From a virus, in IMG/VR virus record IMGVR_UViG_3300020457_001257, positions 1 through 36,850 of that record: a stretch of DNA of 36,850 nucleotides; one strand, given 5' to 3'. Below the pieces are notes generated by a model that was given only the letters and a program-made list of their open reading frames with translations, was not told the DNA's origin and did not search any database. This document shows positions 16,896 through 32,096 of the stretch, piece after piece. How positions within the stretch are numbered: the first letter of the stretch is position 1; every line of letters begins with the position of its first letter. The position numbers were made by a program, and so were the translations under genes.

Positions 16896-17406
16896 AATAA
16901 GAATGTTTGATCACAAACAGGTAGGTTTTGGCGAAGAATTATTAAAAGATCACTTCGTTGAAGCTAGATTTACAAACAGTGATAGAACGTGGATAGAAGT
17001 AATCACTAATGAAAAGGGAGATTCTTTAACATCTACACATATTGAGTATGATGAAAACCAACCATATTATCAAGCGTTAATGACGGTTACTAACATTGAT
17101 AAGATACATGAATGGACTTACAATCATAACGAAAGACAAAGAAAAGAATTTGAAGCATTTGCTTTACAAGTTGCAAAAGACGAGGGCTTAGTTCAAACAG
17201 ATCAACAAAATCCTACAAAGGTTTTAGATTTACTTTTCAATGAGGAAGAAGCAACCGAAGATGAAATGTTTGCTTTAAAAATTGCTGTATTTGAAATACC
17301 TAAAATAAAAGATTCAAAAAATCTAGACGCTAAAAAAGCATTAAGAAAATCTAAATCTAGATTGGAATTAATTAAAGGTGCTATTGATCTTTATAGTGCG
17401 GAATAA
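16885..17406 (+). CDS. Unknown phage protein, 173 aa
   Basis: A 173-residue acidic, mostly helical protein. No motif points to a function. The N-terminus (FVEARFTNSDRTWIEVITNE) suggests a small beta domain, followed by two charged helical parts (about 60-100 and 105-165). AAGGA lies 8 bases upstream of the ATG, inside the end of the epimerase-like gene. Its 3' end overlaps the convergent gene at 17381 by 26 bases, marking the border between the late plus-strand block and the minus-strand island. Confidence 0.7.
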   Translation: MSNEIRMFDHKQVGFGEELLKDHFVEARFTNSDRTWIEVITNEKGDSLTSTHIEYDENQPYYQALMTVTNIDKIHEWTYNHNERQRKEFEAFALQVAKDEGLVQTDQQNPTKVLDLLFNEEEATEDEMFALKIAVFEIPKIKDSKNLDAKKALRKSKSRLELIKGAIDLYSAE

Positions 17407-17968
17407 TATAGTCTGACCACCAACCTTGCCAACCTGGCTCTAATAGGTGATTCATTTGCCCTAGAGTACAGATACTAAACTCTTTTGGTGGCATTTTATA
17501 TAAATGATTTTTGATTGAAGGACAAACTTTGTCATAACAGTTATAATCTATTTCTCTATAGTAAAACTCATCACTACCTTTGTCGTATTTTTCTAAATAC
17601 ACATCTTCGTCTTCTTTAAACTTATCCCATATATGAGATACGTCTCCTTCCCAAGAAACGATAGTTGAGTTTAATGGTGTATGAGCTTCTTCTCTCCACC
17701 ATAAGTCATTTAATAATGTAAAATCTTTTCTGAATAAATCTGGTAACTCTTTCCATATAATAACATCTAAATCAAAATATAAGTTTCTACCATCACGAAA
17801 TTTATCGTACATCTGAAACTTATTGTACCAATTACCGTAAATATCATTTTCAATAACTTCAAAACTATCATATGATATACCAGAGTGAAAGTCTATCATA
17901 TATTTTAAGTTATCAACATGCCATTGAGTAAACTTATTACCAAATCTACAAGCTATTATTCTCCGCAT
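17381..17968 (-). CDS. Putative GT-A-type glycosyltransferase
   Basis: A 195-residue protein with the layout of small nucleotide-sugar transferases: an N-terminal beta start (MRRIIACRFG), then a hydrophobic strand ending in the metal-binding DxD at 66-68 (YFDLDVII), and a later NSTIVSWEG segment that would contact the acceptor. It is shorter than typical GT8-type enzymes. It is the last gene of the 14.7 kb island, overlaps the gene before it by 13 bases and overlaps the convergent plus-strand gene by 26 bases. The substrate cannot be told. Confidence 0.6.
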   Translation of the reverse strand: MRRIIACRFGNKFTQWHVDNLKYMIDFHSGISYDSFEVIENDIYGNWYNKFQMYDKFRDGRNLYFDLDVIIWKELPDLFRKDFTLLNDLWWREEAHTPLNSTIVSWEGDVSHIWDKFKEDEDVYLEKYDKGSDEFYYREIDYNCYDKVCPSIKNHLYKMPPKEFSICTLGQMNHLLEPGWQGWWSDYIIPHYKDQ

Positions 17969-18570
17969 TTTAACTCACCATTATCCATATATTTAATTTC
18001 TTTTATATCTGATATAATATCTATCATAGCCCATTGACCAGATTTTTTAATCTTTTGATATAACAAAGCAAAAGATTTCATATATTTTTCAGGACCAACA
18101 CCAGCAATTTCATAATCGCCACACATTGATAATACTATTTGTACATTATGACCTTGTTCAGCCCACCTTAAAGCAGAGTAGTCTAAAGTTTTCCAAACAC
18201 AACCTGATAAGTTTTGTCCTGCTAAAATTACGTTTTTAATTTCCCAACCTGCTTTCTTGGCTTCTTTTTTTATCCAAGCAATAGAGTTTAATGGATTATC
18301 TTTGTCGTAGTCTGCCCATTTATCAGGTAGTTCTAACCAACAATATCTATCTTTGACTTCATCTTTTAGTTCCATCATTCTAGTATGGGTACCACTTTCT
18401 TGAAAGTCTTCCGATAATATAACCATATCTTTTATAGGGTGTTCAAATATTAACTCTTTTAATTTACTGAAACGCAAATCATTTAACTCCTTTTCTCCTA
18501 GGAGTTGATTGCCTTCAAAATCAATTAAGATAACACCTGTTGCAGGCTTAAGTCGGTGTGGATGATACAT
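17956..18570 (-). CDS. Possible isochorismatase-like cysteine hydrolase
   Basis: A 204-residue alpha/beta protein. The segment NVILAGQNLSGCVWKTLDYS (about 113-132) followed by ALRWAEQGHNVQIVLSMC looks like the nucleophile region of isochorismatase-like hydrolases, with Cys124 as candidate nucleophile. Asp17 in VILIDFEG would be the catalytic Asp and Lys84 (LPDKW) a possible catalytic Lys. The match is weak and the family is diverse, so the activity is open. Its ATG overlaps the stop of the QueC-like gene (TAATG), suggesting the two act together. Confidence 0.45.
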   Translation of the reverse strand: MYHPHRLKPATGVILIDFEGNQLLGEKELNDLRFSKLKELIFEHPIKDMVILSEDFQESGTHTRMMELKDEVKDRYCWLELPDKWADYDKDNPLNSIAWIKKEAKKAGWEIKNVILAGQNLSGCVWKTLDYSALRWAEQGHNVQIVLSMCGDYEIAGVGPEKYMKSFALLYQKIKKSGQWAMIDIISDIKEIKYMDNGELKCGE

Positions 18571-19337
18571 TAATCCTCAAATGCCCAATCCTTCTCATTA
18601 CACCAAAAACATTCACCACATGTTTCTTCGGTTGTTGACCAAGCACATGATTTAGTTAATGGATATAAAGTCTCCATTAAATTGTGTTCTTTAAAAACAC
18701 CTGCCACAAATTTTTTATCTACTCTTAAATACGGTGCATAAGTGTGACCACCATCAGGCCAATTTTCTGTTAATTGTTTCTCGCCATTTCCTGGATCACG
18801 TTTTCTTTCTGCTACTTCATAAAATCCTCTTTCTTTTTGTACTTCTACTGGAGGATTAGTAGTCATAGCCGATATTGCAGGCGTACTATGTGTATTAGAC
18901 ATTTCTGATCTAGCGGCTCTGTTTTGCATAGCTTTGGAACAACCGTTTAATGTTCCCCAAGTTCTTACCATTTCTCCTGTCTTTTCATTCTTGATAAAAC
19001 CTCTTTTAGGATCGTTAAACATTTTCTTTGCTTTTTCCTGCCATACAGGATCAGATGTTTTAACTTCATAAACTTTTAAGTCTTGAACACTGTTAGGAAA
19101 AGTGTCTTGTAAAAATTTATGTACGTTTTTTGCTTTTTCTGTATCTATTCTACCGTCTTCATCACTCATATGAAAAGGGTAAATTTTCATTTCGGGTAGA
19201 TACTTACCGATTAAGTAAACTAATGAAGATGAATCGCAACCACCTGATAAAGACACCACTGCTTTTTCTGGTAGGCCTTCAGGAAAATTTTGTTCATCAA
19301 ATAAGTCAACTGTTTGATTACCATATGTAAACTTCAT
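18570..19337 (-). CDS. QueC-like PP-loop ATPase, copy 1
   Basis: A 255-residue PP-loop ATPase. The ATP-pyrophosphatase signature SLSGGCDSS is at 29-37. The C-terminus has Cys231, Cys240, Cys243 and Cys246 (CGECFWC, then EKDWAF), the zinc site arrangement of QueC, which turns a 7-deazaguanine carboxylate into the nitrile preQ0 using ATP and ammonia. The central AMTTNPPVE segment differs from QueC, and no other queuosine genes are visible, so the substrate may be another carboxylate. TAAAGGAG precedes the start at 19337. It follows a radical SAM gene at a distance of 10 bases and has a paralogue at 25680. Confidence 0.75.
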   Translation of the reverse strand: MKFTYGNQTVDLFDEQNFPEGLPEKAVVSLSGGCDSSSLVYLIGKYLPEMKIYPFHMSDEDGRIDTEKAKNVHKFLQDTFPNSVQDLKVYEVKTSDPVWQEKAKKMFNDPKRGFIKNEKTGEMVRTWGTLNGCSKAMQNRAARSEMSNTHSTPAISAMTTNPPVEVQKERGFYEVAERKRDPGNGEKQLTENWPDGGHTYAPYLRVDKKFVAGVFKEHNLMETLYPLTKSCAWSTTEETCGECFWCNEKDWAFED

Positions 19338-19347
19338 TTTTTCTCCT

Positions 19348-20634
19348 TTAATAGTTTGTTTCTCTCTTAGCTTTTAAATAATGTTCTTCTAACTCCGGAT
19401 GTAGAGCAAACAAATCGTGTCCTTCTCTTTTACTAAAACCATTTTTATCTAAATCTTGACAATAGTCAATAGTTTTAATAAATTCTTCTACATCTTGTTC
19501 TTTGTTTAATGACTCAAGAATATTAGGATAATCCTTATATAGTGGTTTAAGTTTTTCCTTAATTTCTTTAGGCAAATTCTTTACTTGTAATATTCTCGGG
19601 TGTTCAATGATATAAAATGTATGTGCTATACCCATATCTTTTAACATCGCAATTAATTTATGATTTTCTAATACAGATAAGAAAGATATTACAGAGTGAA
19701 CATTAACTCTTGCATTTTTTCTTGATCTCATTAATTTCATATTTTCTACAAGTTGATTCCAATCAGATTTCTTTCTGATATAATCATTATATTTACCATA
19801 ACTGTCTATAGATATTTTCATAACAAACTCTTTGAAGTGAGGAAAATAATCTCTAAAGTTATAACCGTCCATATCAAATACAGATAAATTTGTTTTGTAT
19901 ATTAGGTCTATACCTTTTGAGTAACCTGTTGCTACTAATTTGTCTAATAGTTTATAATGATTTACCATAACTAAAGGTTCGCCACCAATTAGTTTGATTG
20001 ATCTAGTATACTTTGCTACAGAGGCAATATCATCCAAATACTTTTCATCATCATGTTTCATAGTATTCATTCTTTCGCCATCTTTAGGATCCAAATCTGG
20101 ATCGTATACTTTTTTTAATTTTTTTAGTGAGATAGTTCTAGTGTTAGCACTTCTTGGTGTACACATATAACAATCTAGATTACAAGCATTACCAAACATT
20201 TTCATTTTGATGTCTAGTATTCTTTCGTCAAAATCTTTTATATCTCCTTCGTCTATAAATTTCTGAACAGCCCTTAATAACTCTGGAACCTTACTATCAA
20301 ATGTACCTTTTAATATTTGTTCACTATATTTCATTCTATCTGAACGACCATACTTTTGTTCTTGTTTCCAACAACCTGTACAATGGTGTCTAAAAAATTT
20401 AGGATCCCAATCCTCTTTTAACATTTCTTTTCTTAATCTGTTTTGATATTCGGAAGTATACCATTCTTTAATAGATGTATCTTCCATATTGTGGCCAGTT
20501 CTTGCTAGTGCGTCATAACAAGGCGCAAATCTACCACTTAAACTAGAAAATATGTGTGTGAAAGGTAGAGGACAGAACCATAATTTTTTATCCTTTAACT
20601 TTTGTTCAAATTCTTTTTTCTGTTCTTCATTCAT
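19348..20634 (-). CDS. Radical SAM protein with N-terminal Cys-rich domain
   Basis: A 428-residue radical SAM enzyme. The [4Fe-4S]-binding CxxxCxxC is CNLDCYMC at 151-158, followed by the SAM-contacting IKLIGGEPL near 214-222. An extra set of cysteines precedes it (Cys21, Cys39, Cys85, Cys88: PLPFTHIFSSLSGRFAPC, HHCTGCW), resembling half of a SPASM/twitch domain placed before the barrel. The start at 20634 lies 6 bases after a GATAAATA late-type motif, with no Shine-Dalgarno sequence. The next gene downstream is the QueC-like ATPase, a pairing repeated in reverse order at 24832-26414. Substrate unknown. Confidence 0.85.
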   Translation of the reverse strand: MNEEQKKEFEQKLKDKKLWFCPLPFTHIFSSLSGRFAPCYDALARTGHNMEDTSIKEWYTSEYQNRLRKEMLKEDWDPKFFRHHCTGCWKQEQKYGRSDRMKYSEQILKGTFDSKVPELLRAVQKFIDEGDIKDFDERILDIKMKMFGNACNLDCYMCTPRSANTRTISLKKLKKVYDPDLDPKDGERMNTMKHDDEKYLDDIASVAKYTRSIKLIGGEPLVMVNHYKLLDKLVATGYSKGIDLIYKTNLSVFDMDGYNFRDYFPHFKEFVMKISIDSYGKYNDYIRKKSDWNQLVENMKLMRSRKNARVNVHSVISFLSVLENHKLIAMLKDMGIAHTFYIIEHPRILQVKNLPKEIKEKLKPLYKDYPNILESLNKEQDVEEFIKTIDYCQDLDKNGFSKREGHDLFALHPELEEHYLKAKRETNY

Positions 20635-20635
20635 G

Positions 20636-21415
20636 CTAACTATTTATCCATATCTTATAAAGCGGACTATCAGGTAGATTGTGTATAGCACGATTCGGAC
20701 CTGTGTAGTGGACAACCTTTAATTTCTCATTAGGTTCATCTAACAACATAAAGTCTGTATTAAATTTTTTTGCATACATCTTATTCAGATTTATCATATC
20801 TTTGGCATTTTCTGTATACTTACCTAACCATTCTTGTGGTGTATTAGTAAGTTTACTTTTCTTTTCAAAGATTTTCCAATCAACATAGTTTTGTTCGCCA
20901 TAATATTTAAAGTGTACCTTACCTATATTGTAATAGTGTAATTGCCAATATTCAGGATTAAGTGCAAAGTCGTCCCATATATGCTTGAATTGTCCAGATT
21001 TAAATTTATAAAATCCACCATTTAAAGGTAATATATTATTATCTTTTAATCTGTTAGTGTGTAATCTTTCATTCCAAAATACACCATACGATACTAACTC
21101 ATCATCGCCAACAGGATGACCTATAAGTTCATCTACATTACCTACTATAACTTGATCTATATCCATTATGATAATCTCATCGCCTGGATTTTGACCACCA
21201 AATAAAGGACTAAAGTATTTTAGTTTGTGCCAGTGTTTTACGACATTACTATGATGATTATATGGTAATACTATATCGGCCTTTACGTTAGGGTCGTCAC
21301 TTAAACAAATAGATTGAAAAGGTATTGTACTATTTCTTTTCAGTCCATCATAGAAGTTGGCAACATAGTCTGGTGTATACATGCCTTTGAAATACACCGT
21401 ACATATTTTAAGCAT
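20636..21415 (-). CDS. GT-A-type glycosyltransferase
   Basis: A 259-residue protein with an N-terminal KICTVYFKGMYTPDYVANF start, a SICLSDDP strand and a DxD motif at 85-87 (IIIMDIDQVI), then LPLNGGFYKFKSG, where an acceptor-binding loop is expected, and a C-terminal VVHYTGPNRAIH that fits the metal-binding His of GT8-like enzymes. It overlaps the preceding glycosyltransferase gene by 8 bases. Sugar donor and acceptor are unknown; the position among sugar genes suggests decoration of a glycan or virion component. Confidence 0.7.
   Translation of the reverse strand: MLKICTVYFKGMYTPDYVANFYDGLKRNSTIPFQSICLSDDPNVKADIVLPYNHHSNVVKHWHKLKYFSPLFGGQNPGDEIIIMDIDQVIVGNVDELIGHPVGDDELVSYGVFWNERLHTNRLKDNNILPLNGGFYKFKSGQFKHIWDDFALNPEYWQLHYYNIGKVHFKYYGEQNYVDWKIFEKKSKLTNTPQEWLGKYTENAKDMINLNKMYAKKFNTDFMLLDEPNEKLKVVHYTGPNRAIHNLPDSPLYKIWINS
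20641..20648 (-). promoter_or_regulatory. Late-promoter-like motif GATAAATA inside the island
   Basis: Minus-strand GATAAATA ends 6 bases before the ATG of the radical SAM gene at 20634. One mismatch to TATAAATA. It lies in the end of the upstream glycosyltransferase gene. Confidence 0.45.
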
Positions 21416-22292
21416 TTATATTTCTCCAGATAATATCAAACTTTTTATTAATAGCGTGTATAAGTTTAGCTGTTTTAGGAATAAATCCTTGTGTATCAAA
21501 GAAATAATGCCAATCATCTTGCAACCAATGTACTGGTACATTATTTTCTTTTAGTTTAACAGCAAATATTGTTTCGTTGTCATAACCAAAGTATTTTGCT
21601 ATTTTCATAGGAAAGAAATCATCTTGTCCTATTAAACTTGTCATAAGGTCTAAAGTTTGTTTAAAATCTGTAAAATAATCTAATTTTTTTAAGTGTTCTC
21701 TATTGATACCTACTATACCTGTATTGATAACATCATTTTTAGGACTTAAACCTTTTTCTATTAACATTGCCTGAGCGTTATAAAATTTTGAGTTTGGACT
21801 TCTTATTGTTTGTGTTCTTTCGCCTATCTTATGAATAGGGCTTACTCTTTCGTTATTGTTCTTAACGGCCACACCTTTTGATAAGTCAAATACTTCAAAA
21901 AAGTTTTCTGTTGTGTTAGGTACAACATCAAAGTCTAGATATAACACCTCGTCATAGTCTTTAGCAAATTCATATAGTAAATGTATCTTAAAAAAGTTAA
22001 CTATGTTATAACTTGTAATTTCTGGATAAAACTTTCTCATCCATTTGTAATAATCAACATAACTAGTATTTAAACCAGCACACTTTGTATCATTTTCTAC
22101 CATAGTAAAATCTACACCTATTTTTTTGGCATATTCTACTTTACAATCTACTAACTGTTGGTAGTTCTTTTCAAATTCGTTTTTAGTATTATAGTTTGTA
22201 AACTCGGCATCCTTTTTCTTGATATGCTCGTCAAACGTATCTAATTCTTCTTTTGGAATATTAATGTATAAACTAAATATTTTTCTTTTCAC
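21408..22292 (-). CDS. GT-A-type glycosyltransferase
   Basis: A 294-residue protein. After a charged N-terminal part, residues 95-127 (NFFKIHLLYEFAKDYDEVLY then LDFDVVPNTTENFF) contain the DxD at 120-122 typical of metal-dependent GT-A enzymes, and VINTGIVGINREH (near 188) fits the following conserved loop. It overlaps the methyltransferase gene upstream by 20 bases and the next glycosyltransferase downstream by 8, so the three are surely co-transcribed. Donor and acceptor are unknown. Confidence 0.72.
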   Translation of the reverse strand: MKRKIFSLYINIPKEELDTFDEHIKKKDAEFTNYNTKNEFEKNYQQLVDCKVEYAKKIGVDFTMVENDTKCAGLNTSYVDYYKWMRKFYPEITSYNIVNFFKIHLLYEFAKDYDEVLYLDFDVVPNTTENFFEVFDLSKGVAVKNNNERVSPIHKIGERTQTIRSPNSKFYNAQAMLIEKGLSPKNDVINTGIVGINREHLKKLDYFTDFKQTLDLMTSLIGQDDFFPMKIAKYFGYDNETIFAVKLKENNVPVHWLQDDWHYFFDTQGFIPKTAKLIHAINKKFDIIWRNINA

Positions 22293-22944
22293 GTTTCGCC
22301 TCTTCCCATGACATAATTGGATCAGGAGTACCTTCCATTTTTCCTACTATTATAAATCTTGTACCTCTGTAATCTGTAACCTTTTCCTCTGATAATACAG
22401 TTGCATTACTAGGTAATTGCTTTTTAAAATCTTCTATTGTCTCTACACAATTAATATGGCCTTCAATATCATACATGTTGTTAGATGTAAAAGCAAAGTG
22501 TGTTGGCGATGTTCTTCCCCACCAAGGATTTTTCATTATTGGTGCTGGTCCCCATTCTTTCATGGGTTTCATATGTTCGCAAGAAGTATTAATAAACAAA
22601 TCAACACCGTCATATTGATCTCTATATTTTTCAAATACATCACCTGTAATCCAATCTATATTCCAATCTTTAAATATTCTATACTTTGATCTACTAATTA
22701 CTTGTGCGTCTGTATCAACACAAACTATTTGTTTTACTTTGTGATAAAATGCCGGTATTAAAATACTACCATACCAACTACCAAATATAACTACTTTTGA
22801 ATCTTTATTTAAGAAATCTAATTTATTTACAGCGTCAACAAGTTTTAGTTTAGTGTTGAATTGATTAGGACTTAACGAATCTAATAGGTCGTCATTCTCC
22901 CTAATTTCTGCCATTAAATTTCTTAATATTTCTAAATCAATCAT
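22273..22944 (-). CDS. SAM-dependent methyltransferase-like protein
   Basis: A 223-residue class I methyltransferase-like protein. Motif I is VVIFGSWYGS at 51-60, followed by the acidic end of strand 2 (VCVDTDAQ, near 74) and ITGDVF (near 98), the usual SAM-binding order. The VDLFINTSCEHM segment matches motif IV. The glycine motif is not perfect, so a nucleotide- or SAM-binding role without methylation is possible. It overlaps the carbamoyltransferase gene by 8 bases. The target is unknown. Confidence 0.65.
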   Translation of the reverse strand: MIDLEILRNLMAEIRENDDLLDSLSPNQFNTKLKLVDAVNKLDFLNKDSKVVIFGSWYGSILIPAFYHKVKQIVCVDTDAQVISRSKYRIFKDWNIDWITGDVFEKYRDQYDGVDLFINTSCEHMKPMKEWGPAPIMKNPWWGRTSPTHFAFTSNNMYDIEGHINCVETIEDFKKQLPSNATVLSEEKVTDYRGTRFIIVGKMEGTPDPIMSWEEAKREKKNI

Positions 22945-24463
22945 TTTTTCTATATATGTAATCGTTAATAACTAATATATCCAATGCAGTTCTTTTAAAA
23001 GTTCTCATTGCATTTTCTGGTGTTTCTACTATAGGCTCTTGACAGTTAAAACTTGTATTAAGTACCATAGGTACGCCAGTGATAACACCAAACTCTCTTA
23101 TTAGTTCATAAAATTTATTATTATCTTCTTTGTTTACTGTTTGTATTCTTGCAGTACCATCAACGTGAGTAATACCTGGTACTACTTTCTTTTTATCTTC
23201 TTTAACAGGACAAATTCTTGACATATAAGGACTAGGCAAAGTTGTATCAAAATATTCCTTATAATGTTCTTCTAAAACTGCTGGTGCAAAAGGTCTAAAG
23301 TCTTCTCTCATTTTTATTGTACTGTTAATAATATCTTTTATATCTGGATTTCTAGGATCGGCTAATATACTTCTATTACCTAATGCTCTATTACCACTTT
23401 CTGATTTACCTTGAAACCAACCTACTATCATACCATCGGCAATTGCTTGTGCAATCTCTTTGTATGAAGTTAATTTTTCTCCACCTTTATGGTCATATGA
23501 TAAGCCAGCATATACGTTAGACTTATGTACTTTATTGTTTATTGTATATTCAGCATGTTGATAAGTACCAATAGCTTGGCCTTCGTCACCAATTGCAGGT
23601 GGAACAAATACATTATCCCATTTTTTGGTAAACATTTCATTACAGTAACCGTTATATGCAACACCACCAGCTAGACATAAGTTATCGGAAGTTTTTAAAG
23701 GATATACATGTTCCTTAATTCTTTCCATAGTTATTTCTTGTAGTGTATATGCCAAGTCATCTATACCATGTTTTGCAATTTGTATTTGTTTCCATTCTGG
23801 ATATTTTCTTTCTAAAATAGGTCCTTCTAAAATTTGTGTAAGTACATTGTAATAATAATCACTATGTTTACCATAACCAACTTTACCCATAAGTTTACTT
23901 GCACCTAATGTTCCAAATCCTGTTAAGTTAGACATGTGGTTCCATAACCAACCGATAGGAAGTTTTGCTGATAAATCTGTTGCGTTGCCGTCTCTGTCAA
24001 AGAATAAACATCTATATCTTGAGCCAATACCATCTATCGCAAGTATATCACTTTGTTTGTAGCCGGAGTTTAAAAATGCATATGTAGCATGTGATTGATG
24101 ATGGTCAATATAATAAATGTCATCTTTATAATATCTTTGCCATAATGTTTTAACTTCATAATCTAAAATTTCATCATGACCTTTAAATATTGTATTAAAT
24201 AATTCTTCTTTAGATTTTCTGATACCACCATAGGTATAAGTCCATGCAAAGACAGTATCAGGTTCTTTCTTAACATAATCATTTACAAATTCATCATTTA
24301 AAGTATAATCACCAGGATTTAATATATCTGATTGGTGGTTATAAGCTTCTGCTTTATATGGCAAGTTATGTTTGAATCTGGTGTGTCTTTCTCTCTGATT
24401 ATGATAAACACCGTCATAGGTGTTGTGGTCATGTAAGTTTATAGCAACAGCGTTAATTTTCAC
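22937..24463 (-). CDS. NodU/CmcH-type O-carbamoyltransferase
   Basis: A 508-residue carbamoyltransferase. The N-terminal Kae1-like metal site is seen as HHQSHATYAF (121-130), followed by ILAIDGIGSR and LAGGVAYNGYCN. The C-terminal YrdC-like half has GNRALGNRSILADPRNP and VLNTSFNCQEPIVETP, both typical of the family. Such enzymes move a carbamoyl group from carbamoyl phosphate through a carbamoyl-adenylate to a hydroxyl of a sugar or natural product. Translation begins at a GTG 7 bases after AAGGAG. The acceptor could be a sugar made in this island or a modified base; the sequence does not decide. Confidence 0.9.
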   Translation of the reverse strand: MKINAVAINLHDHNTYDGVYHNQRERHTRFKHNLPYKAEAYNHQSDILNPGDYTLNDEFVNDYVKKEPDTVFAWTYTYGGIRKSKEELFNTIFKGHDEILDYEVKTLWQRYYKDDIYYIDHHQSHATYAFLNSGYKQSDILAIDGIGSRYRCLFFDRDGNATDLSAKLPIGWLWNHMSNLTGFGTLGASKLMGKVGYGKHSDYYYNVLTQILEGPILERKYPEWKQIQIAKHGIDDLAYTLQEITMERIKEHVYPLKTSDNLCLAGGVAYNGYCNEMFTKKWDNVFVPPAIGDEGQAIGTYQHAEYTINNKVHKSNVYAGLSYDHKGGEKLTSYKEIAQAIADGMIVGWFQGKSESGNRALGNRSILADPRNPDIKDIINSTIKMREDFRPFAPAVLEEHYKEYFDTTLPSPYMSRICPVKEDKKKVVPGITHVDGTARIQTVNKEDNNKFYELIREFGVITGVPMVLNTSFNCQEPIVETPENAMRTFKRTALDILVINDYIYRKND

Positions 24464-24480
24464 TTCTTTTCTCCTTCAGT

Positions 24481-24488
24481 TATTTATT
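24481..24488 (-). promoter_or_regulatory. Late-promoter-like motif AATAAATA
   Basis: Minus-strand AATAAATA, overlapping the stop codon of the DUF59 gene and followed after about 6 bases by the AAGGAG ribosome-binding site of the carbamoyltransferase. One mismatch to the late consensus. Confidence 0.35.
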
Positions 24489-24828
24489 ATAGTCCTAATA
24501 AACCTCTTATCTCTGGATCAATCATGTCTCTTGTCCATTGAGGCGTCATCGTGACTCTTACATTGCATTTTAGTCCTGGAATACTTTCAATATTCATCTT
24601 TACATTATTTACTATTTGGTCTGCCGCCGGACAAAAGGCAGACGTTAAACTCATTAAAACAAAAACATGTCTTGCTTCTGTCACTTTAACATCATAGATT
24701 AAACCAAGTGTGTATATATCTGTAGAGATTTCAGGATCGTAAACTTGTTTTAACTGTTCCTTAATCTTTTCAATATATTCTAACCTAGTCTCTTGATGAT
24801 CTTGTATATCGCTTAAATCTTCTTTCAT
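24487..24828 (-). CDS. DUF59/MIP18-family Fe-S assembly protein (SufT-like)
   Basis: A 113-residue protein of the DUF59 (MIP18/PaaD/SufT) family: a helical N-terminus, VYDPEISTDIYTLGLIYDV (29-47) with the signature DPE and GLIYDV, and a conserved cysteine at 66 in SAFCPAAD, then MTPQWTRDMI. Family members help load [4Fe-4S] clusters into apo-proteins. Here it lies 3 bases downstream of a radical SAM gene in an island with several such enzymes, so a role in their maturation is a natural inference. It is small for a fusion-free member and looks complete. Confidence 0.85.
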   Translation of the reverse strand: MKEDLSDIQDHQETRLEYIEKIKEQLKQVYDPEISTDIYTLGLIYDVKVTEARHVFVLMSLTSAFCPAADQIVNNVKMNIESIPGLKCNVRVTMTPQWTRDMIDPEIRGLLGL

Positions 24829-24831
24829 AAT

Positions 24832-25671
24832 TTATACATTTAATATATTACTATATTTTTCTATAGGAAAATGTCCTTTCGGTTGTACATATTCTTTGCA
24901 AGTCACACAATACTTTTCGTATTTAAATAATTGAAAATTCATCATCTTATCAATATTTTCTTTTGTCATAGGAAAAGACCTAGACAATTCAATGTTGTTT
25001 GCAAATTTTTTACTACAGTGTACTATATGCCTTTTTTCAAAGTCAATAACAGGCACCATAGGAAAAGCGGCACACATTTTACGGTCTATTTCAGCCGCTT
25101 GTTCGTGTACTGCTGTCACATCACCCTTTGTTGGTGTTCTACCATTGAACGCCTTAAACATGGTGTTTTTGTGATCTAATTTCTTTTGAAATTCTGGATA
25201 GTTCTCTACGTACTTAAAGTAGTTAGGTGTTTTAAGTACTACATTATAATTGTTCATTTCGTTTGGTCCGAAATAATCAAAGTTACCTAGTTTTTTAATT
25301 TCTTTAGGATAAAAATCTAATGTTAAGTGTTCTACATATAAGATTTCTGGATCCTCTAGTATTTCAGGATATCTTTTTCTTACGAAAGAGTTAGATAATA
25401 CTGAACATATAAAATTAGGATATTCTTTTATCATTGCTATCACTTCACGTAGATTTTTAATTAAACCTGGTTCACCACCTAGTAAACATATTCTGACTTT
25501 ATATTTACTTAATGCGTTTAATGTTTCTCTTAAAAAATCTAAATCTACTGTTAAGTTTCTCATTTCTAAAGTATAACTTGTGCAGTAGTGACAGTCTTTA
25601 TTACAAGACATTGATAAAAAGAAGTCTATCGCTAAATAATTTTTTTGTACGTATGTTAAATCAAACTTCAT
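24832..25671 (-). CDS. Radical SAM protein
   Basis: A 279-residue radical SAM enzyme. The cluster-binding motif CNKDCHYC is at 23-30, and RICLLGGEPG (near 67) gives the SAM-contacting GGEP. Later cysteines (HCSKKF, then YCVTCKEY near the C-terminus) may hold a second cluster. A start at 25689 would add six residues. I prefer 25671 because the AATAAATA motif at 25677-25684 lies exactly 5 bases before it, the same geometry as other late genes here, and it would overlap the longer start. It lies downstream of QueC-like copy 2 and 3 bases before the DUF59 gene. Substrate unknown. Confidence 0.82.
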   Translation of the reverse strand: MKFDLTYVQKNYLAIDFFLSMSCNKDCHYCTSYTLEMRNLTVDLDFLRETLNALSKYKVRICLLGGEPGLIKNLREVIAMIKEYPNFICSVLSNSFVRKRYPEILEDPEILYVEHLTLDFYPKEIKKLGNFDYFGPNEMNNYNVVLKTPNYFKYVENYPEFQKKLDHKNTMFKAFNGRTPTKGDVTAVHEQAAEIDRKMCAAFPMVPVIDFEKRHIVHCSKKFANNIELSRSFPMTKENIDKMMNFQLFKYEKYCVTCKEYVQPKGHFPIEKYSNILNV

Positions 25672-25676
25672 GCTAC

Positions 25677-25684
25677 TATTTATT
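25677..25684 (-). promoter_or_regulatory. Late-promoter-like motif AATAAATA
   Basis: Minus-strand AATAAATA, 5 bases before the ATG at 25671. It overlaps the stop codon of the QueC-like gene. One mismatch to TATAAATA, but with the exact spacing seen at the strong late promoters. Confidence 0.5.
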
Positions 25685-26414
25685 CCCATTTTAAATCAAA
25701 TGCCCAGGCTTTCTCAAAACACCAAAAGCACTCGTGACATTCTTGCGAATAGTTATCAGTCATTTCCTCATCGCCTACACATGAACGTGTAAGTGGAAAT
25801 AAACTATCCATTAAATCATTTTCTTTAAAAACAGCTGCGACAAACTTTTTGTCCACATTGGCAAATGGGAGATAGGATCTCCGGGGGCCCCTGGTGTTTC
25901 TCTGTTTGTCATTCTGGTTTCTCCTGGTTTCCGCCATATGAAACATTATAGGGTGTTTTTTCATATCTTCTATTGGTGGATTTCTAGTCATACCGTTTAT
26001 CATATATGCGTTAGGATATCTGTTTCTTAATTCGTCTCTTACTGTTGATAACTGTAAAGACTTTGATACTTGTTGTGCTGTCATTGTAGAAAAACTTGGA
26101 TCGTTTTTGATAGCTTCTTCAGCGGCTGGATATAACGCTTCGTTTCTATCATCATAATTTCTTTTTATTAAATCTTGTATATTCTGACTAGGAAATTTAT
26201 CTTGCATAAACTTTACAATCTTTTCGGCTGCCTGTATGTCATATGGATTATATACGTCTTGACAACTGTAAGATATAACTTCTACGTTAGGAAAGTGTTT
26301 GCATATCAAAAACATTACAGCGGCTGAGTCTGTACCACCTGATAATGATATTACGACTTGTTCTACTGGAAATTTAAAAAAATCAATTGTCTTGTCATTA
26401 TAAGTTATTTGCAT
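25680..26414 (-). CDS. QueC-like PP-loop ATPase, copy 2
   Basis: A 244-residue paralogue of the ATPase at 18570. PP-loop SLSGGTDS at 23-30. Central GMTRNPPIE matches AMTTNPPVE of copy 1. C-terminal zinc-type cysteines Cys212, Cys226, Cys229 and Cys232 (CHECFWC) are followed by EKAWAF. Both copies share VDKKFVA.VFKE and an LFPLTRSC-type segment. An unusual GC-rich patch near 25880-25930 encodes an Arg/Asn/Gln-rich loop absent from copy 1. The start overlaps the stop of the nitroreductase-like gene (TAATG) with a weak AGAG site. It probably activates a carboxylate as an adenylate; the substrate is unknown. Confidence 0.75.
   Translation of the reverse strand: MQITYNDKTIDFFKFPVEQVVISLSGGTDSAAVMFLICKHFPNVEVISYSCQDVYNPYDIQAAEKIVKFMQDKFPSQNIQDLIKRNYDDRNEALYPAAEEAIKNDPSFSTMTAQQVSKSLQLSTVRDELRNRYPNAYMINGMTRNPPIEDMKKHPIMFHMAETRRNQNDKQRNTRGPRRSYLPFANVDKKFVAAVFKENDLMDSLFPLTRSCVGDEEMTDNYSQECHECFWCFEKAWAFDLKWE
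25876..25932 (-). repeat. GC-rich patch with short AGAAACCAG-like repeats
   Basis: Within QueC-like copy 2, an imperfect short repeat (GAAACCAGG, AGAAACCAG, GAGAAACACCAGG on the minus strand) runs into the palindrome GGGGCCCC near 25884-25891. This is the most GC-rich spot I notice in very AT-rich DNA. It encodes a loop rich in Arg, Asn and Gln that the paralogue lacks. Confidence 0.5.
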
Positions 26415-27220
26415 TATTTCTCTTTTAGTTTATCCTCAAAAAAATCTCCATCTTTTTCTCCAGGTATATGTAAATCTAACCATTTCTTTTTAGTCAAATC
26501 TTCTGGTTCAGGATCATTATCTTCGTTTGTCACAACCCAATTAACAACCTTTTCATAATCTGGTTTAGGGTCTAAATGTGTTTGTTTAGTTCTTTCCATA
26601 AACTGCCATCTAAAATATTTACCAACACCTGTTGACATTATAATATGTGGCTCTTGATCTACATATGGTATATGTTTCCAATATTTTTTAAACTGTTTAG
26701 GAAAACAAGAAGTAAAAGATACATCTAAACCTTTTTCACAAAGTAAACCTGTTAATGTAGCACAGAATAATCCACACTCAAATGAAATTAATGTGTTTAT
26801 TACTTCTAACTTTTCCTCAAATTCTTGTTCCGGATGATGACTATCTTCATCAATGGCCATTTTATTAAATTCGTTTGATTCACTAACTCTAGATGTAAAT
26901 ATAAAAACATATGGTGCTGTTATTATATGTTGATAGTTTCTATTTACTGTATGTTTAGAATGGTCTAGATAACCGTCAGCCATTGCGTCATCTTCAACTT
27001 TATGGTGGTTTTTAATTGCTTGTTTCCATATTCTTTCTTTTTCTGCCTGATCTCCTGGACCGATAACGTTTACTCTGTAAGGCATATATTGTTGTTTAGA
27101 AGGAGTTAATTGCCATGCCTTCTTTAAACACTCGTTTACTGTTTCTTTAGATGGTATATTTTTATCATCATATACCCAAACGTGTTTTCGTTTTTTAAAT
27201 ATGTCGTATACTTTATCCAT
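26414..27220 (-). CDS. Nitroreductase-fold protein, copy A
   Basis: A 268-residue protein with the layout of FMN-dependent nitroreductases: FKKRKHVWVYDD near residue 8 (the family RRSxRxF start), LKKAWQLTPSKQQYMPYRV at 32-50 (the PSxxNxQPW-like segment), and a GLFCATLTGLLCEKGLDVSF helix and turn near 150-170 where the family has the second FMN-contacting helix. A C-terminal stretch of acidic residues follows. It is a close tandem paralogue of the gene at 27213, overlapping it by 8 bases. The two could form a heterodimer, since this family works as dimers. Substrate unknown. Confidence 0.68.
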   Translation of the reverse strand: MDKVYDIFKKRKHVWVYDDKNIPSKETVNECLKKAWQLTPSKQQYMPYRVNVIGPGDQAEKERIWKQAIKNHHKVEDDAMADGYLDHSKHTVNRNYQHIITAPYVFIFTSRVSESNEFNKMAIDEDSHHPEQEFEEKLEVINTLISFECGLFCATLTGLLCEKGLDVSFTSCFPKQFKKYWKHIPYVDQEPHIIMSTGVGKYFRWQFMERTKQTHLDPKPDYEKVVNWVVTNEDNDPEPEDLTKKKWLDLHIPGEKDGDFFEDKLKEK

Positions 27221-28046
27221 TTACATTCTCATATGGTGATTCACCTTTGCCGTCTATTGCTAATTGTACTCGTCTTTTTAATTCAGTTCTATTTTTGTCT
27301 GTAGTACCTGGTGAATCTTTAACCCAATTTATTATATCTTCAAATTCTGCTTTTTTATCCATATCCCAATTACTTCTTCCGTTTTCTATATCAGGACCGT
27401 TTTCTTGCATCCATTGTTTTTTATAATACTTGCCATAACCTATAGAACATGTTAATAGTGGTATAGTGTTAACAAAAGGTACATCATGCCACTTATCTAC
27501 ATTTTTTGGAAAACAAGTTGTATATGTTATATCAATACCTTGTTCTACTAATATACCTGTTAGTGAAGCTGCAAATAATCCAACTTCTATACTTGTTGCT
27601 TGTGCCAATGTTTCGTGTTGGTCTGAAAACTCTGGTTCACTAAAGTGACCGTCTTCAGCAATACATTTTTTATTCCAGTCATTTGTTTTTTCTGGATCAA
27701 CAGTTCTAGATGTAAATACTATTACATATGGAGCGTCTGATAAATGTTGATATGTTCTATTGACTTTAAATTTTGTTTCTTTTAATTGTTTCTTTTCATG
27801 GGCTCTTATTTCTACATCATGGTGGTTAATCATTGCTTTGTCCCATACTTTTAGTTTTTCATCGTCAAATTCTTTTCCTGGTCCTAATATGTTTACTGAA
27901 TATGGGTAATAATTTTGTTTTGATGGTGTACAATGCCAGGCATGCCATAATGCGTCTGTAATTGTTTCTTTATTTGGTATCTTATCTTTATGATATTCTA
28001 TTACGTGTTTTCTTTTTTTAAATATTTCGTATGTTTGAGTACTCAT
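27213..28046 (-). CDS. Nitroreductase-fold protein, copy B
   Basis: A 277-residue paralogue of the neighbouring gene. Shared features are the FKKRKHVIEYHKDKIP start, HAWHCTPSKQNYYPYSV (about 36-51), NILGPGKEF, VNRTYQHLSDAPYVIVFTSR, and GLFAASLTGILVEQGIDITY followed by a TCFPK segment. These mark the FMN-binding nitroreductase fold, used by reductases, dehydrogenases and oxidases. Compared with copy A, the C-terminal part is longer and differs. It overlaps the SGNH gene by ATGA. Duplication followed by divergence is clear; which residues remain catalytic cannot be decided by eye. Confidence 0.68.
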   Translation of the reverse strand: MSTQTYEIFKKRKHVIEYHKDKIPNKETITDALWHAWHCTPSKQNYYPYSVNILGPGKEFDDEKLKVWDKAMINHHDVEIRAHEKKQLKETKFKVNRTYQHLSDAPYVIVFTSRTVDPEKTNDWNKKCIAEDGHFSEPEFSDQHETLAQATSIEVGLFAASLTGILVEQGIDITYTTCFPKNVDKWHDVPFVNTIPLLTCSIGYGKYYKKQWMQENGPDIENGRSNWDMDKKAEFEDIINWVKDSPGTTDKNRTELKRRVQLAIDGKGESPYENVNG

Positions 28047-28822
28047 GTTATCTCCTTCCTTAAAAAGTCTGCTATTGCCTGGTGTCCTTTTGCGTTAGGG
28101 TGGTCATCAAATTTACTTACAACTAAACCATTTTGTATTTGTTTTTCTACTGTATTGCCTAATACCTTTTGATGTATATTAAATCCTTTATTGTGAGATT
28201 CTTGTAAACCAGGCCAACCTATAAAATTATTTATTTTATCCTTATAGTATTCAAATCGGCCGTAAATTCTTTGTGTGTCACTTTCTATATTGCCTTTGTA
28301 TATCATATAACCATCAACATCTAATTGATCCTCTGTAGGTTTTAAACCTTTAACATATCCTTCAAATAAATCACCCATTTGAAAATGCCAATAAGGCAAT
28401 TTGTATCTTTCACATATTCTTTGAAAACTTATTTGATATCTTAACGTTTGAGTTACCCAATATAATATATCTCCATCATGTTGTACTCTACGTGATCTCC
28501 ATGTTTGCCATTGACCTTTTTCATAATTTACTCTAGGACCTTTTACAATACCTGATTGCCAATCTTGTCTCATTGCTTGAGTCCAACCTGCTATGACCAT
28601 ACCTATATCTTCTTTATTGGTTATATCTTCTATTTGATCTAATATTGTGCTATAGATAAATTTATTACCTTGACCACCTTTTGCAACACAAATTAATTCC
28701 ATACCTAGATAGTCTGCTAAAATTTCAGGCCATTTTGGCCATGAAAAGTCCCATGTAGGGTGACAGATTGATTCAAAACTTAAATCTGTACAACTATCTC
28801 CACTAACTATTAATTTTTTCAT
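28043..28822 (-). CDS. SGNH/GDSL-type hydrolase
   Basis: A 259-residue protein of the SGNH hydrolase superfamily. Block I is IVSGDSCTDL with the nucleophile Ser10, the glycine block is KGGQGN near 48-53, and the C-terminal block is FDDHPNAKGHQAIADF (238-253), giving the catalytic Asp and His. Members remove or transfer acyl groups, commonly acetyl, on sugars. It shares the ATGA overlap with the nitroreductase gene downstream and a 20-base overlap with the unknown gene upstream. Acting on the product of the island, such as a deacetylation step, is possible but unproven. Confidence 0.75.
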   Translation of the reverse strand: MKKLIVSGDSCTDLSFESICHPTWDFSWPKWPEILADYLGMELICVAKGGQGNKFIYSTILDQIEDITNKEDIGMVIAGWTQAMRQDWQSGIVKGPRVNYEKGQWQTWRSRRVQHDGDILYWVTQTLRYQISFQRICERYKLPYWHFQMGDLFEGYVKGLKPTEDQLDVDGYMIYKGNIESDTQRIYGRFEYYKDKINNFIGWPGLQESHNKGFNIHQKVLGNTVEKQIQNGLVVSKFDDHPNAKGHQAIADFLRKEIT

Positions 28823-29111
28823 AAAATAATTTGTTAAATGCTATTTTTAATTTTTGTTTTGGTTCTTCTTTAAAGTTTAAAGGTCCGTAATCATATTCAG
28901 GCATTAAGTAAGTTTTCTCTACAATATACTCATACACCGGTTCATGTTCTTTATCAATTAATGTTTCGTCAAAGATGTCACTAGTACCTAATGCTCTTTT
29001 CATCATCTGACAAGTCTTAATAAGATTTTGATCTGCTATAGGAACAGGATTGCCTTTACTGTCTATATAACTAACTTGATCTAATTTTTCGTTTGCTATT
29101 ATTTCAATCAT
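28803..29111 (-). CDS. Unknown protein, 102 aa
   Basis: A 102-residue acidic protein with no recognised domain. The start overlaps the aminotransferase stop as ATGA and the end overlaps the SGNH gene by 20 bases, so it is a genuine member of the operon. It has an N-terminal beta-like part (MIEIIANEKLDQVSYIDSKG) and a helical C-terminus. A role as a small partner of a neighbour is possible. No membrane segment or signal peptide. Confidence 0.6.
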   Translation of the reverse strand: MIEIIANEKLDQVSYIDSKGNPVPIADQNLIKTCQMMKRALGTSDIFDETLIDKEHEPVYEYIVEKTYLMPEYDYGPLNFKEEPKQKLKIAFNKLFYEKINS

Positions 29112-30178
29112 AGATTATTTAATATACCATTACAAGTATCTTTTATCTCCTCATCTGTTAACCATGGATGTATAGGTAAAGTTAATATAGTTTTACTGAC
29201 ATATTTGGCATTTTTACAATTGTCACTTCTATGTTCTATATTTTTATACATAGGTCTTTCTGAAATAGGTTTTTCATAATGAACACCAGCACCTATCTTA
29301 CCTTTTATTCTATCTCTTGCCTCACCAGATTCAACTGGATCGCCTTCATCAAATCTTATAATATATTTGTGATACGTATGATTAAGACCATTGGTTGGTT
29401 TATGTACATACACATAGCCGTCTAATAGTTCATCATATTTTTTTGCTATGGCTTGTTTCGCCTCAATATACTGATTTAATTTCTTTAGTCTGTAATCAAT
29501 AAACTTTGCATTAAAGAATAACATTTTAGAATTGTATCCTAGTATCTCGTGGTTACCATGTTTTCTTAATTTGATACACATATCAGCGTGATCTTTGTTG
29601 TCTGTTAATACCACGCCACCTCCGGCGATTCCACCTATCGTTTTATTAGCATTGAAACTTATTGTACTAAATTCTCCTAGTGTACCTGCTTTAATGCCAT
29701 TAAGACTAGAGCCTATGGCTTGAGCTGCGTCTTCTACAAAAGCAATGTTTTTCTCTTTACAAAATTTTAATATCTCTGTCACATCTGACATACTACCAAA
29801 TAAATGTGGATAGACAATTGCTTTTACTTTGTCTGAATACATACGTTTGATACTGTCAAGTGTTATATGGAAAGTATATGGGTCTATATCACAAAATACT
29901 GGTTTTGCACCTACCATAGATATACAAGACGCTGTTGATATCCATGAGAAGTTGGTCGTTAGTACTTCATCACCTTGTTTTATACCTAAACACTTTAAAG
30001 AAAACATTAAAGCGTCTGTACCGTTTTGACATGCAACGGCATATTTTCTAGGTACTATATTTTTGATTGTTTTTTCCAGAAACTCTATGTTTTGTTCCTG
30101 GTTTTCTTTCATACATTCATCAAAGAGTTTTAGATAGTTCTCTTTGTCAACTTCATATTCATATTTCCATGCGTCCAT
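29108..30178 (-). CDS. DegT/DnrJ/EryC1-type PLP aminotransferase
   Basis: A 356-residue aminotransferase of the sugar-aminotransferase family. The PLP-binding lysine is Lys179 in SFNANKTIGG, with the preceding VEDAAQAIG (148-156) giving the Asp that contacts the PLP ring, and NGTDALMFSLK (52-62) giving the phosphate-binding segment. Such enzymes convert keto sugars on nucleotides to amino sugars. Together with the epimerase at 16164 it suggests that the phage makes a modified amino sugar. Its start shares a base with the stop of the SPASM-like gene (TAATG). Length and motifs look complete. Confidence 0.88.
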   Translation of the reverse strand: MDAWKYEYEVDKENYLKLFDECMKENQEQNIEFLEKTIKNIVPRKYAVACQNGTDALMFSLKCLGIKQGDEVLTTNFSWISTASCISMVGAKPVFCDIDPYTFHITLDSIKRMYSDKVKAIVYPHLFGSMSDVTEILKFCKEKNIAFVEDAAQAIGSSLNGIKAGTLGEFSTISFNANKTIGGIAGGGVVLTDNKDHADMCIKLRKHGNHEILGYNSKMLFFNAKFIDYRLKKLNQYIEAKQAIAKKYDELLDGYVYVHKPTNGLNHTYHKYIIRFDEGDPVESGEARDRIKGKIGAGVHYEKPISERPMYKNIEHRSDNCKNAKYVSKTILTLPIHPWLTDEEIKDTCNGILNNL

Positions 30179-30552
30179 TATTTTACATCCTTTGCTACTT
30201 CTTTACCTTTTTCATAATAAGTTTCAACTTTTATATTATCTTCTTTGCCTCTTGCTTTACAATGAAACAAACAAGTTTGATTAATCCTATTTAGGTTGTC
30301 TCCTACGTCTCTAGCCTGGACTAGGTCATCTTCAAATTCTTTCCATTCCTTTGTATCAAGTATCTCATCTATACTATTATAATCTTCTAACTTACTAACT
30401 TTATAAAGTGGTTTATACAATTCAGCCTTTGTTGTTTTAGGGTGGTCACACCAACAACAAGGTATTAAATGACCTCTATTATCTATTGCCAATGGCATAG
30501 GTTGAAAATCTTTATTATCTGGATCAGGTAAACATTTAGGTTTTAGTTTCAT
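30178..30552 (-). CDS. Stand-alone SPASM-like Fe-S domain protein
   Basis: A 124-residue protein with a cysteine pattern typical of the extra cluster domain of radical SAM enzymes: Cys7, then RGHLIPCCWC (Cys32, Cys33, Cys35), a SIDEILDTKEWKEF helix like those found between cysteines of SPASM domains, and Cys94 and Cys98 (QTCLFHC). It has no CxxxCxxC radical SAM motif of its own. It overlaps the radical SAM gene just upstream by ATGA, so it looks like the C-terminal part of one enzyme encoded as a separate chain. Whether the split is natural or due to an old frameshift is open. Confidence 0.6.
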   Translation of the reverse strand: MKLKPKCLPDPDNKDFQPMPLAIDNRGHLIPCCWCDHPKTTKAELYKPLYKVSKLEDYNSIDEILDTKEWKEFEDDLVQARDVGDNLNRINQTCLFHCKARGKEDNIKVETYYEKGKEVAKDVK

Positions 30553-31184
30553 CTTTCAGTACCTTTGTATACAGCCGCTTTTGATTTTAACGAGTTAGTT
30601 GGTTTAAAAGGATCGTCATCACTTAACCACCTTGATGATTCTATTTGTATAAAACTTAATCCTTCATCTTCGGCCATTTTCTTTGCAGTCTCTATATCAT
30701 TTTCATTATATTTAAATCTTATATATTGCCATACAGGTGTACTTAATAAATGTTTCTTGGCCTCTTTCATTATTTCAAACATTTTCTCCCCATCTTGGTT
30801 TTTCCTGTACTTGTGGCTATCTTTCGGTAAACCGTCACAAGCAAAAATCCAAACTGCTTTAGGATTTGCCTTAAATGATTTTACATACCACGACATTGGT
30901 TTAGCCGTAGCCGCATTATGAACAAACACCTCTGGTACATCTTTTAGTTCTTTCATTATCTCATTAAATTTAGGGTGATGTACAGGATCAGATAATTGAC
31001 CACAAAATCCTATATCTACAAAATGTTTTGCAATCATTTTTATTTCTTTCATAGTTAAATCACGGCCATGTGGTACTAAACCATAATTAGTAAATGATGT
31101 TTGCCTTTGACAATTAGGACATTCAAGTGGACACCTGTGTGTCACATCTAGATTTAATCTACGTCTTTGTTTAAAGTATGTCAT
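30549..31184 (-). CDS. Radical SAM protein, short core only
   Basis: A 211-residue radical SAM protein. CPLECPNC at 18-25 is the cluster motif (LDVTHRCPLECPNCQRQ). The rest is a shortened barrel: LTMKEIKMIAKHF, FCGQLSDPVHHPKF, where the GGEP segment is replaced by CGQLSDP, and FIQIESSRW. It lacks a C-terminal auxiliary-cluster domain, which is encoded by the overlapping next gene (30178). Similar short proteins are found among phage radical SAM genes, but the substrate is unknown. It starts 14 bases inside the end of the gene at 31171. Confidence 0.78.
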   Translation of the reverse strand: MTYFKQRRRLNLDVTHRCPLECPNCQRQTSFTNYGLVPHGRDLTMKEIKMIAKHFVDIGFCGQLSDPVHHPKFNEIMKELKDVPEVFVHNAATAKPMSWYVKSFKANPKAVWIFACDGLPKDSHKYRKNQDGEKMFEIMKEAKKHLLSTPVWQYIRFKYNENDIETAKKMAEDEGLSFIQIESSRWLSDDDPFKPTNSLKSKAAVYKGTER

Positions 31185-32040
31185 TCATTGCCTTTATAAT
31201 AACTTCTATATTTGGTTTATTAACAGGATCAGTAAGACAGTATGCCGGTCTTTTATAGTAAACTGGTCCTGCGTCTTTAATATTTTTATCTCTTGCATAT
31301 ATGAAATTCATTCCAAAGAAACGACACTCTTGCATTAATCTTGGTGCCGGATCAAATGTGTGTTTAGTATAAACGTAAGTATCAAACATACCTAATAAAT
31401 TCTTTACAGGTACAAATACATGATTTAAATTATGATCTATGTACTTATCTTTGTATGCCAAGATACCATGATTTTGGTATTTGTGAATATGTTTTTTTAG
31501 TTCAGTATAATAACTTTCGTTTGTACCTAAAAATAGATATTTAAACTTAACGTCTCTGATTATAGGTTTATATACACTGTAATTAATAATCTTTTCAAAT
31601 TGTCTACCAACACCATTGGCATAAACTTCATGGTCGCATAAGTCAATTACTTTTTCTGGTTTAAAAAATTCTAGTGCTAAAGGATATTCTTTTGGGTGGT
31701 TTTCTGAATATACTGATATAAGAGGTTTCTTAAATAACAAACGTAAAGTCAATTGTGTATCTTTATCATAATCTTTAATACTCTTGTATGCCAGAGTTAT
31801 CATACTTCTACCCATAATTAAATTTACATCAGCTTCTTCATAATCAAAATACACATGTTTGAAATGTATATACTTTTCTGTTAAAGCCTCTATGTAAGTT
31901 TCTTTTTTAAACTTGTAGTGTGGTATGATTATAAGATTAGCATTGATACCTAAATCATTTAAATATTGTACTTGCTCAAAGCTATAATGCATTAAGCCAT
32001 CACCTGGTTTAGAAGTCACTATTACGTTTAATCTGGTCAT
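31171..32040 (-). CDS. Putative GT-B-type glycosyltransferase
   Basis: The first gene of the island, 289 residues. It resembles GT4-type glycosyltransferases: an N-terminal Rossmann-like start (LNVIVTSKPGDGLMHYSFEQ), a VKFKYLFLGTNESYY strand typical of the second domain and a near-C-terminal PRLMQECRFFGMNFIYA segment where the nucleotide-sugar site of GT-B enzymes lies. The usual ExxxxxE pattern is not perfect, so the assignment is moderate. The start at 32040 lies directly after a sigma70-like promoter, so its mRNA may be nearly leaderless. It overlaps the radical SAM gene by 14 bases. Confidence 0.5.
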   Translation of the reverse strand: MTRLNVIVTSKPGDGLMHYSFEQVQYLNDLGINANLIIIPHYKFKKETYIEALTEKYIHFKHVYFDYEEADVNLIMGRSMITLAYKSIKDYDKDTQLTLRLLFKKPLISVYSENHPKEYPLALEFFKPEKVIDLCDHEVYANGVGRQFEKIINYSVYKPIIRDVKFKYLFLGTNESYYTELKKHIHKYQNHGILAYKDKYIDHNLNHVFVPVKNLLGMFDTYVYTKHTFDPAPRLMQECRFFGMNFIYARDKNIKDAGPVYYKRPAYCLTDPVNKPNIEVIIKAMNDIL

Positions 32041-32045
32041 ATATT

Positions 32046-32074
32046 ATAATAACATTTTTATCCTATTTTGTCAA
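32046..32074 (-). promoter_or_regulatory. Sigma70-like promoter of the accessory island
   Basis: Minus-strand TTGACA (32069-32074, perfect consensus) and TATTAT (32046-32051) with a 17-base spacer; an overlapping TATAAT lies at 32043-32048. Transcription would begin within a base or two of the ATG at 32040. This is a strong host-type promoter and likely drives all 19 genes down to 17381. Confidence 0.7.
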
Positions 32075-32096
32075 TGTTATGCATATTTATCCGTCT

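Follow-up and report, generated by a model that had tools for sequence, protein, structure and literature searches.

The DNA analysed here (the window) is the 36,850-base virus record IMGVR_UViG_3300020457_001257, and the subject is an island of minus-strand biosynthetic genes at positions 17381-32040. By its gene content the window is a pelagimyophage fragment carrying T4-type virion genes, since it encodes T4-like baseplate genes (gp25, a gp6-like gene and PAAR) and a 2018-aa protein, v11, with 66% identity to VrlC of Pelagibacter phage Mosig EXVC030M. When open reading frames (ORFs) of at least 100 aa were counted on the minus strand from 32040 to 17381, exactly 19 were found, all complete; they are lettered A to S in transcription order (Table 1). 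Genes overlap at 14 of the 18 junctions, and the other four are gaps of 3, 23, 1 and 10 nt. Composition skew inverts across the stretch. The island starts past v12-v15, near v11, and each of its borders is a strand switch. Plus-strand v15 (16885-17406) converges with S, their 3' ends overlapping, and the plus-strand genes at 32129 and 32284 diverge from A. The original prediction, which had described nineteen tightly overlapping genes read against the structural genes, is thus borne out.

Table 1. Promoter elements and genes of the island, in window coordinates. SAM, S-adenosylmethionine; PLP, pyridoxal phosphate; Fe-S, iron-sulphur.
Feature	Position	Strand	Description
GATAAATA	32084..32091	-	One mismatch from the T4-type late promoter TATAAATA
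Sigma-70-type promoter	32046..32074	-	TTGACA-N17-TATTAT, TG before the -10 box; ends 5 nt before the ATG of A
A	31171..32040	-	Core; GT-B-fold glycosyltransferase-like (predicted); invariant DPAPR..E motif; without Pfam match
B	30549..31184	-	Radical SAM domain (CxxxCxxC; CPLECPNC) of a split enzyme; PF04055 E 1.1e-4, below cutoff
C	30178..30552	-	SPASM/twitch-like auxiliary-cluster half of the radical SAM enzyme of B
D	29108..30178	-	DegT/DnrJ/EryC1 PLP aminotransferase; PF01041 E 8e-80
E	28803..29111	-	Small domain partner of D
F	28043..28822	-	SGNH-type hydrolase/acyltransferase; invariant Ser10 in GDS, G50, D239, H241
G	27213..28046	-	Accessory; nitroreductase-like flavoprotein; PF00881 E 1.4e-4, just below cutoff
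H	26414..27220	-	Accessory; paralogue of G, 41% identity
I	25680..26414	-	Accessory; QueC-like PP-loop ATPase with C-terminal Cys4 motif; PF06508 E 2e-6
J	24832..25689	-	Core; radical SAM, C-terminal Cys residues; PF04055 E 9.5e-8
K	24487..24828	-	Accessory; DUF59/SUF-associated Fe-S assembly protein; PF01883 E 8.6e-15; TIGR02945 below cutoff
L	22937..24463	-	Core; NodU-type O-carbamoyltransferase; PF16861 E 1e-68, PF02543 E 2e-19
M	22273..22944	-	Core; SAM-methyltransferase-fold protein; family profile to MJ0882 E 4e-5, RsmA
N	21408..22292	-	GT8 glycosyltransferase; PF01501 E 7e-6; DxD
O	20636..21415	-	GT8-like glycosyltransferase; phrog_1962 glycosyltransferase E 3e-11; invariant DID
P	19348..20634	-	Accessory; N-twitch radical SAM; NF033640 297 bits, above cutoff 170
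Q	18570..19337	-	Accessory; second QueC-like PP-loop; PF06508 E 3e-6; SLSGGCDS and Cys4 motif
R	17956..18570	-	Accessory; isochorismatase-like cysteine hydrolase (predicted); invariant GxNxxGC
S	17381..17968	-	Core, last gene; glycosyltransferase-like, DxD; phrog_1962 E 7e-5; invariant DLD

Nearly all of the products are enzymes, and the classes that had been named for them were recovered: radical SAM (B, J, P), QueC-like PP-loop (I, Q), nitroreductase-like (G, H), carbamoyltransferase (L), DegT aminotransferase (D), GT8-like (N, O, S) and DUF59 (K), with the SGNH hydrolase (F) confirmed by motifs and the methyltransferase (M) by a fold-like match. Annotation is clear for D, L, K, P and J, and weaker but supported for B, G/H, I/Q, N, O, S, M and F. 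The expected catalytic motifs are intact. L contains both the Carbam_trans_N and Carbam_trans_C domains with the HHxxHA and SFN motifs, placing it in the NodU/TobZ group, and it aligns to GdmN, NovN and TobZ. The best NCBIfam matches of D are the LegC/PseC families, below cutoff. The few profile matches of J among solved structures include, weakly (E 0.04-0.06), the radical SAM dehydrogenase BtrN of aminocyclitol synthesis. The family profile of G matches 3gbh (E 8e-5), and I carries the motifs SLSGGTDS and C212..CHECFWC.

Four assignments are new here. By comparison with relatives, B and C are halves of one radical SAM/SPASM enzyme, because both are matched by undivided ORFs of 308-433 aa (e.g. 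L039:10821-11828); the cysteines of C are C7, a Gx4C element (27-32), C33, C35, C94 and C98. On similar grounds E is a domain of aminotransferase D, as Mosig (419 aa) and further phages encode D-E as a single protein. The AlphaFold2 model of A (predicted local distance difference test, pLDDT, 82) gave PimA, LanGT2 and other GT-B enzymes as best Foldseek matches (E 1.5e-4; template modelling (TM) score about 0.42-0.45), pointing to a GT-B-like protein, and PDB profile searches with A and with O returned no convincing relative. The model of R (pLDDT 84.6) matched YcaC, nicotinamidase and N-carbamoylsarcosine amidase (E 2e-5 to 9e-5); with this predicted fold and the catalytic Cys present, R is assigned to the isochorismatase-like hydrolases.

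IMG/VR was scanned with profiles of J and of I/Q, which gave 158 loci, some sharing contigs. These yielded 55 complete islands, reduced to 34 non-redundant ones; an island had to contain A, L and S to be selected, and the frequencies of J and I/Q are biased upwards because the loci were found through them. The order A-(B,C)-F-D(E)-J-L-M-N-O-S recurs beside v15/v14/VrlC in related marine phages, the isolate Mosig among them, and the conserved set comprises about ten to nineteen enzymes. Among the 34 islands, D and J are each present in 33, M and N in 32, O in 31, and B and F in 30. The accessory genes are rarer (G/H in 21, I/Q and P in 11 each, R in 9, K in 7), and I/Q, P and R tend to be found in the same islands (Fisher p 5e-5 for Q-P, 7e-5 for P-R and 0.03 for Q-R, uncorrected for shared ancestry). 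This gene-neighbourhood comparison agrees with the earlier proposal that the overlapping genes are kept as a unit. For I, a search of IMG/VR with I alone gave no match, nor did deposited phages; I is missing from the near relative L002.

The island genes are under purifying selection. Against L002, the ratio of nonsynonymous to synonymous substitution rates (dN/dS) is 0.04-0.27 for 14 of the 15 shared genes, the exception being F (0.45). F evolves fast (dN/dS 0.45-0.48, several-fold above its neighbours), is 52% identical to its L002 counterpart where most neighbours are at about 90%, and is duplicated in several islands. Because the motifs are intact and dN/dS is low, the island is far more than a chance assembly. 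Protein distance matrices of the core genes correlate (r 0.46-0.93), and part of this correlation is shared phage ancestry, since v15 correlates too.

The Mosig genome (MT647606) carries A, B, C, F, a fused D+E, J, L, M, N, O and S at the equivalent site. Its island differs in being without I, K, P, Q and R, in starting from a late-type promoter, and in having two nitroreductase genes, a short one that opens the island and another, so annotated, ahead of S. A short nitroreductase homologue opens the island in other relatives (L002:5388-6014; L008:19989-20564), not at that place in the window.

The island of the window probably has its own host-type promoter, a sigma-70-type element that would give a nearly leaderless A transcript. 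Of 33 non-redundant loci in which A comes first (A-first loci), 19 have such an element upstream of it with a score of at least 12 (0.15% of shuffles), against none of the 15 loci with another gene ahead of A. The T4 late promoter consensus TATAAATA is the top-enriched octamer upstream of ORFs in pelagimyophages, with 4 copies seen there against 0.03 expected in the window, 10 against 0.19 in Mosig and 14 against 0.27 in 12 island loci. The window holds seven copies, all on the plus strand and just upstream of genes of that strand (1191, 1948, 6835, 6848, 7812, 32097, 35914); shuffling yields the same total, and the information lies in where the copies sit. Some of them stop 5 nt short of an ATG, a hint of leaderless late transcripts. 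An exact copy lies farther upstream of A in 9 of the 33 A-first loci (2% of shuffles). Earlier work on pelagimyophages reported no success in locating middle or late promoters (PMC7029224).

In the genome-contig collection, A occurs only on three phage contigs mis-binned in metagenome-assembled genomes (L169, L170 and L171, with genome labels Planctomycetota, Pelagibacter and Rhodobiaceae). J is found in 1 of 397 Pelagibacteraceae genomes, namely on a mis-binned phage contig, and in 0 of the 396 others; it looks phage-specific as far as these searches, which fall short of all bacteria, extend. An origin of the block from host genomes was rejected, as the matches of A and J in the genomes searched lie only in mis-binned phage contigs. 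L-family carbamoyltransferases are encoded by 232 of the 397 genomes (E<=1e-20), and five that were inspected share 34-38% identity with L, three of them adjoining glycosyltransferase genes. The hosts therefore use this enzyme class, probably in surface polysaccharide synthesis, while appearing to be without the island's pathway itself within the genomes searched.

The location corresponds to the host recognition cluster (HRC) of pelagimyophages, a nonsyntenic hypervariable region near VrlC that holds GT8 glycosyltransferases and radical SAM cassettes and for which host O-chain modification was proposed (Zaragoza-Solas et al. 2020, PMC7029224). This identity went unrecognised in the original prediction. 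Like the HRC, the island adjoins VrlC among the structural genes of a T4-like phage of SAR11 and carries radical SAM genes along with glycosyltransferases of the GT8 type. Earlier publication thus covers the site, its glycosyltransferases and radical SAM cassettes, and the proposal of O-chain modification. In contrast to the nonsyntenic HRC, the minus-strand operon (and this applies to the operon only) is syntenic in most of the 34 islands, with variation in the accessory genes; a conserved core operon with fixed neighbours, split and fused enzymes, an accessory set and promoters are resolved here. No earlier description of the conserved operon, its enzyme set or its promoters was found in open-licence papers. 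The sugar clusters and Nol-like carbamoyltransferases of cyanomyophages are comparable as phage-borne sugar genes, with the L family in more than 100 cyanophage records, but the best carbamoyltransferases there reach about 33% identity, and J and A are unmatched at E 1e-5.

No described pathway with such a gene set was found, as had been surmised, and its best reading is a phage-specific operon making a carbamoylated amino-sugar glycan. The original prediction of a modified sugar for virion, cell surface or DNA holds in its sugar part: there are four glycosyltransferase-like proteins, L matches O-carbamoyltransferases of the GdmN/NovN/TobZ type, D belongs to a sugar aminotransferase class, and J weakly resembles BtrN. 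A glycan-tailoring function, to which the conserved core, synteny, correlated divergence and purifying selection point, is probable. We propose an order of reactions, with substrate, acceptor and purpose, as follows. The radical SAM/SPASM enzymes (B+C and J, with P as an add-on) would oxidise or rearrange a sugar, on which D+E would place an amino group. L and the methyltransferase-like M would then decorate it, F may add or remove an acyl group, and A, N, O and S would build the glycan on its acceptor. The accessory G/H, I/Q and R may vary the decoration, and K may assist Fe-S supply for the radical SAM enzymes. An infected cell would thereby acquire a surface altered against co-infecting phages. 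That a single phage-specific operon both makes and decorates a glycan, with host envelope polysaccharide as its most likely acceptor, stands in roughly even balance; for the host envelope as target taken by itself, the prospects are about equal either way.

Several observations weigh against this proposal. No acceptor, flippase, polymerase or membrane protein was recognised in the island, and the identity of the glycan product is deduced from the enzymes. The fold matches of A and R are moderate (TM about 0.45). N, O and S are mostly missing from a distant clade (L092-L117) that has A, B, C, D, J, L and M, which shows that the core can do without the GT8-like enzymes. In Mosig and its close kin, TATAAATA lies 5 nt before the first island gene, and 4 of the 34 islands are co-directional with the virion genes (v14/v15). 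Given such late-type promoters or co-direction in some phages, decoration of the virion suits too: the glycan would be attached to tail fibres, VrlC or other surface proteins, altering adsorption or hiding the particle, and the placement of the island within the HRC, beside VrlC and tail genes, is in keeping with this. However, the window and the majority of A-first loci have a conserved promoter of the sigma-70 type, and in most phages island transcription is separate from that of the virion genes. Virion decoration is accordingly possible but rather unlikely. The idea that the sigma-70 promoter marks early, host-directed action is itself weakened by the Mosig-type late promoter and the few co-directional islands; expression timing varies from lineage to lineage and does not single out the target. 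Sequence alone cannot decide between virion and cell surface. We favour the envelope, as a preference rather than a demonstration, because of the published GT8 reasoning (PMC7029224), the host carbamoyltransferases beside glycosyltransferase genes and the separate transcription.

The mix of radical SAM, DegT, carbamoyltransferase, SGNH and glycosyltransferase genes also resembles aminoglycoside-type clusters, in which BtrN with a DegT aminotransferase, and TobZ, provide amino-sugar oxidation, transamination and O-carbamoylation, and the best alignment of L is to GdmN and NovN. The product might then be soluble, a small glycosylated compound of aminoglycoside- or nucleoside-like kind directed at the host or at competitors. 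Yet the similarity of J to BtrN is weak, no aminoglycoside scaffold genes were seen, no transporter or resistance gene was recognised, and the GT8-like enzymes of most islands suit a polymer acceptor, making this improbable. For phage DNA hypermodification, such as carbamoylated or glycosylated 5-hydroxymethylcytosine (5hmC) or 7-deazaguanine, one can cite the QueC-like genes and a phage 5hmC carbamoyltransferase of the superfamily of L (PMC8670742). In that work, DNA-type carbamoyltransferases co-occur with thymidylate synthase, whereas others adjoin glycosyltransferases. The thymidylate synthase/dCMP hydroxymethylase family is present in 1 of 10 island-bearing records, missing from the other nine, Mosig and a 171-kb record among those without it, which disfavours 5hmC-type modification. 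A TET search gave no match, and the control genomes gave none either. 7-Deazaguanine was rejected, as I and Q fall far below the curated QueC cutoff (TIGR00364) and QueD and FolE are in 0 of the 10 records, which may be incomplete. DNA decoration, the remaining part of the original prediction, therefore has little support and is very improbable. SPASM/twitch radical SAM enzymes often act on peptides, and those of the island could modify a peptide or protein, as in ribosomally synthesised and post-translationally modified peptides, rather than a sugar; no precursor peptide was seen and all families of this kind scored under cutoff, so that we consider this the least probable of the alternatives.

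Several genes around the island were also noted. A GalE-like short-chain epimerase (16164-16895), which could supply a sugar nucleotide, flanks it on one side, and an aspartyl/asparaginyl hydroxylase-like protein (32284-32745) on the other. A phage-encoded TonB-dependent receptor with a signal-peptide-like start lies at 34084-35691 (minus strand); its nearest family is the vitamin B12 receptor BtuB (E 1.5e-29, below cutoff), and a divergent 601-aa homologue is found at the equivalent place in L003-L007. The receptor gene overlaps v17, which encodes a radical SAM protein related to B12-binding families.

SAR11 is among the most abundant organisms on Earth, and when phages of such a streamlined host keep a large, conserved pathway rich in Fe-S radical enzymes, its cost must be repaid. 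The island offers uncharacterised radical SAM enzymes, probably sugar-acting. Tentatively, it may be a phage-specific pathway, not borrowed as a block from a known cell, in which two to three radical SAM/SPASM enzymes, one of them split, lead to a new class of carbamoylated amino-sugar glycan whose product is diversified by exchangeable accessory enzymes. If the island remodels the host surface, competition and superinfection exclusion among SAR11 phages would become directly testable, with Mosig on HTCC1062.

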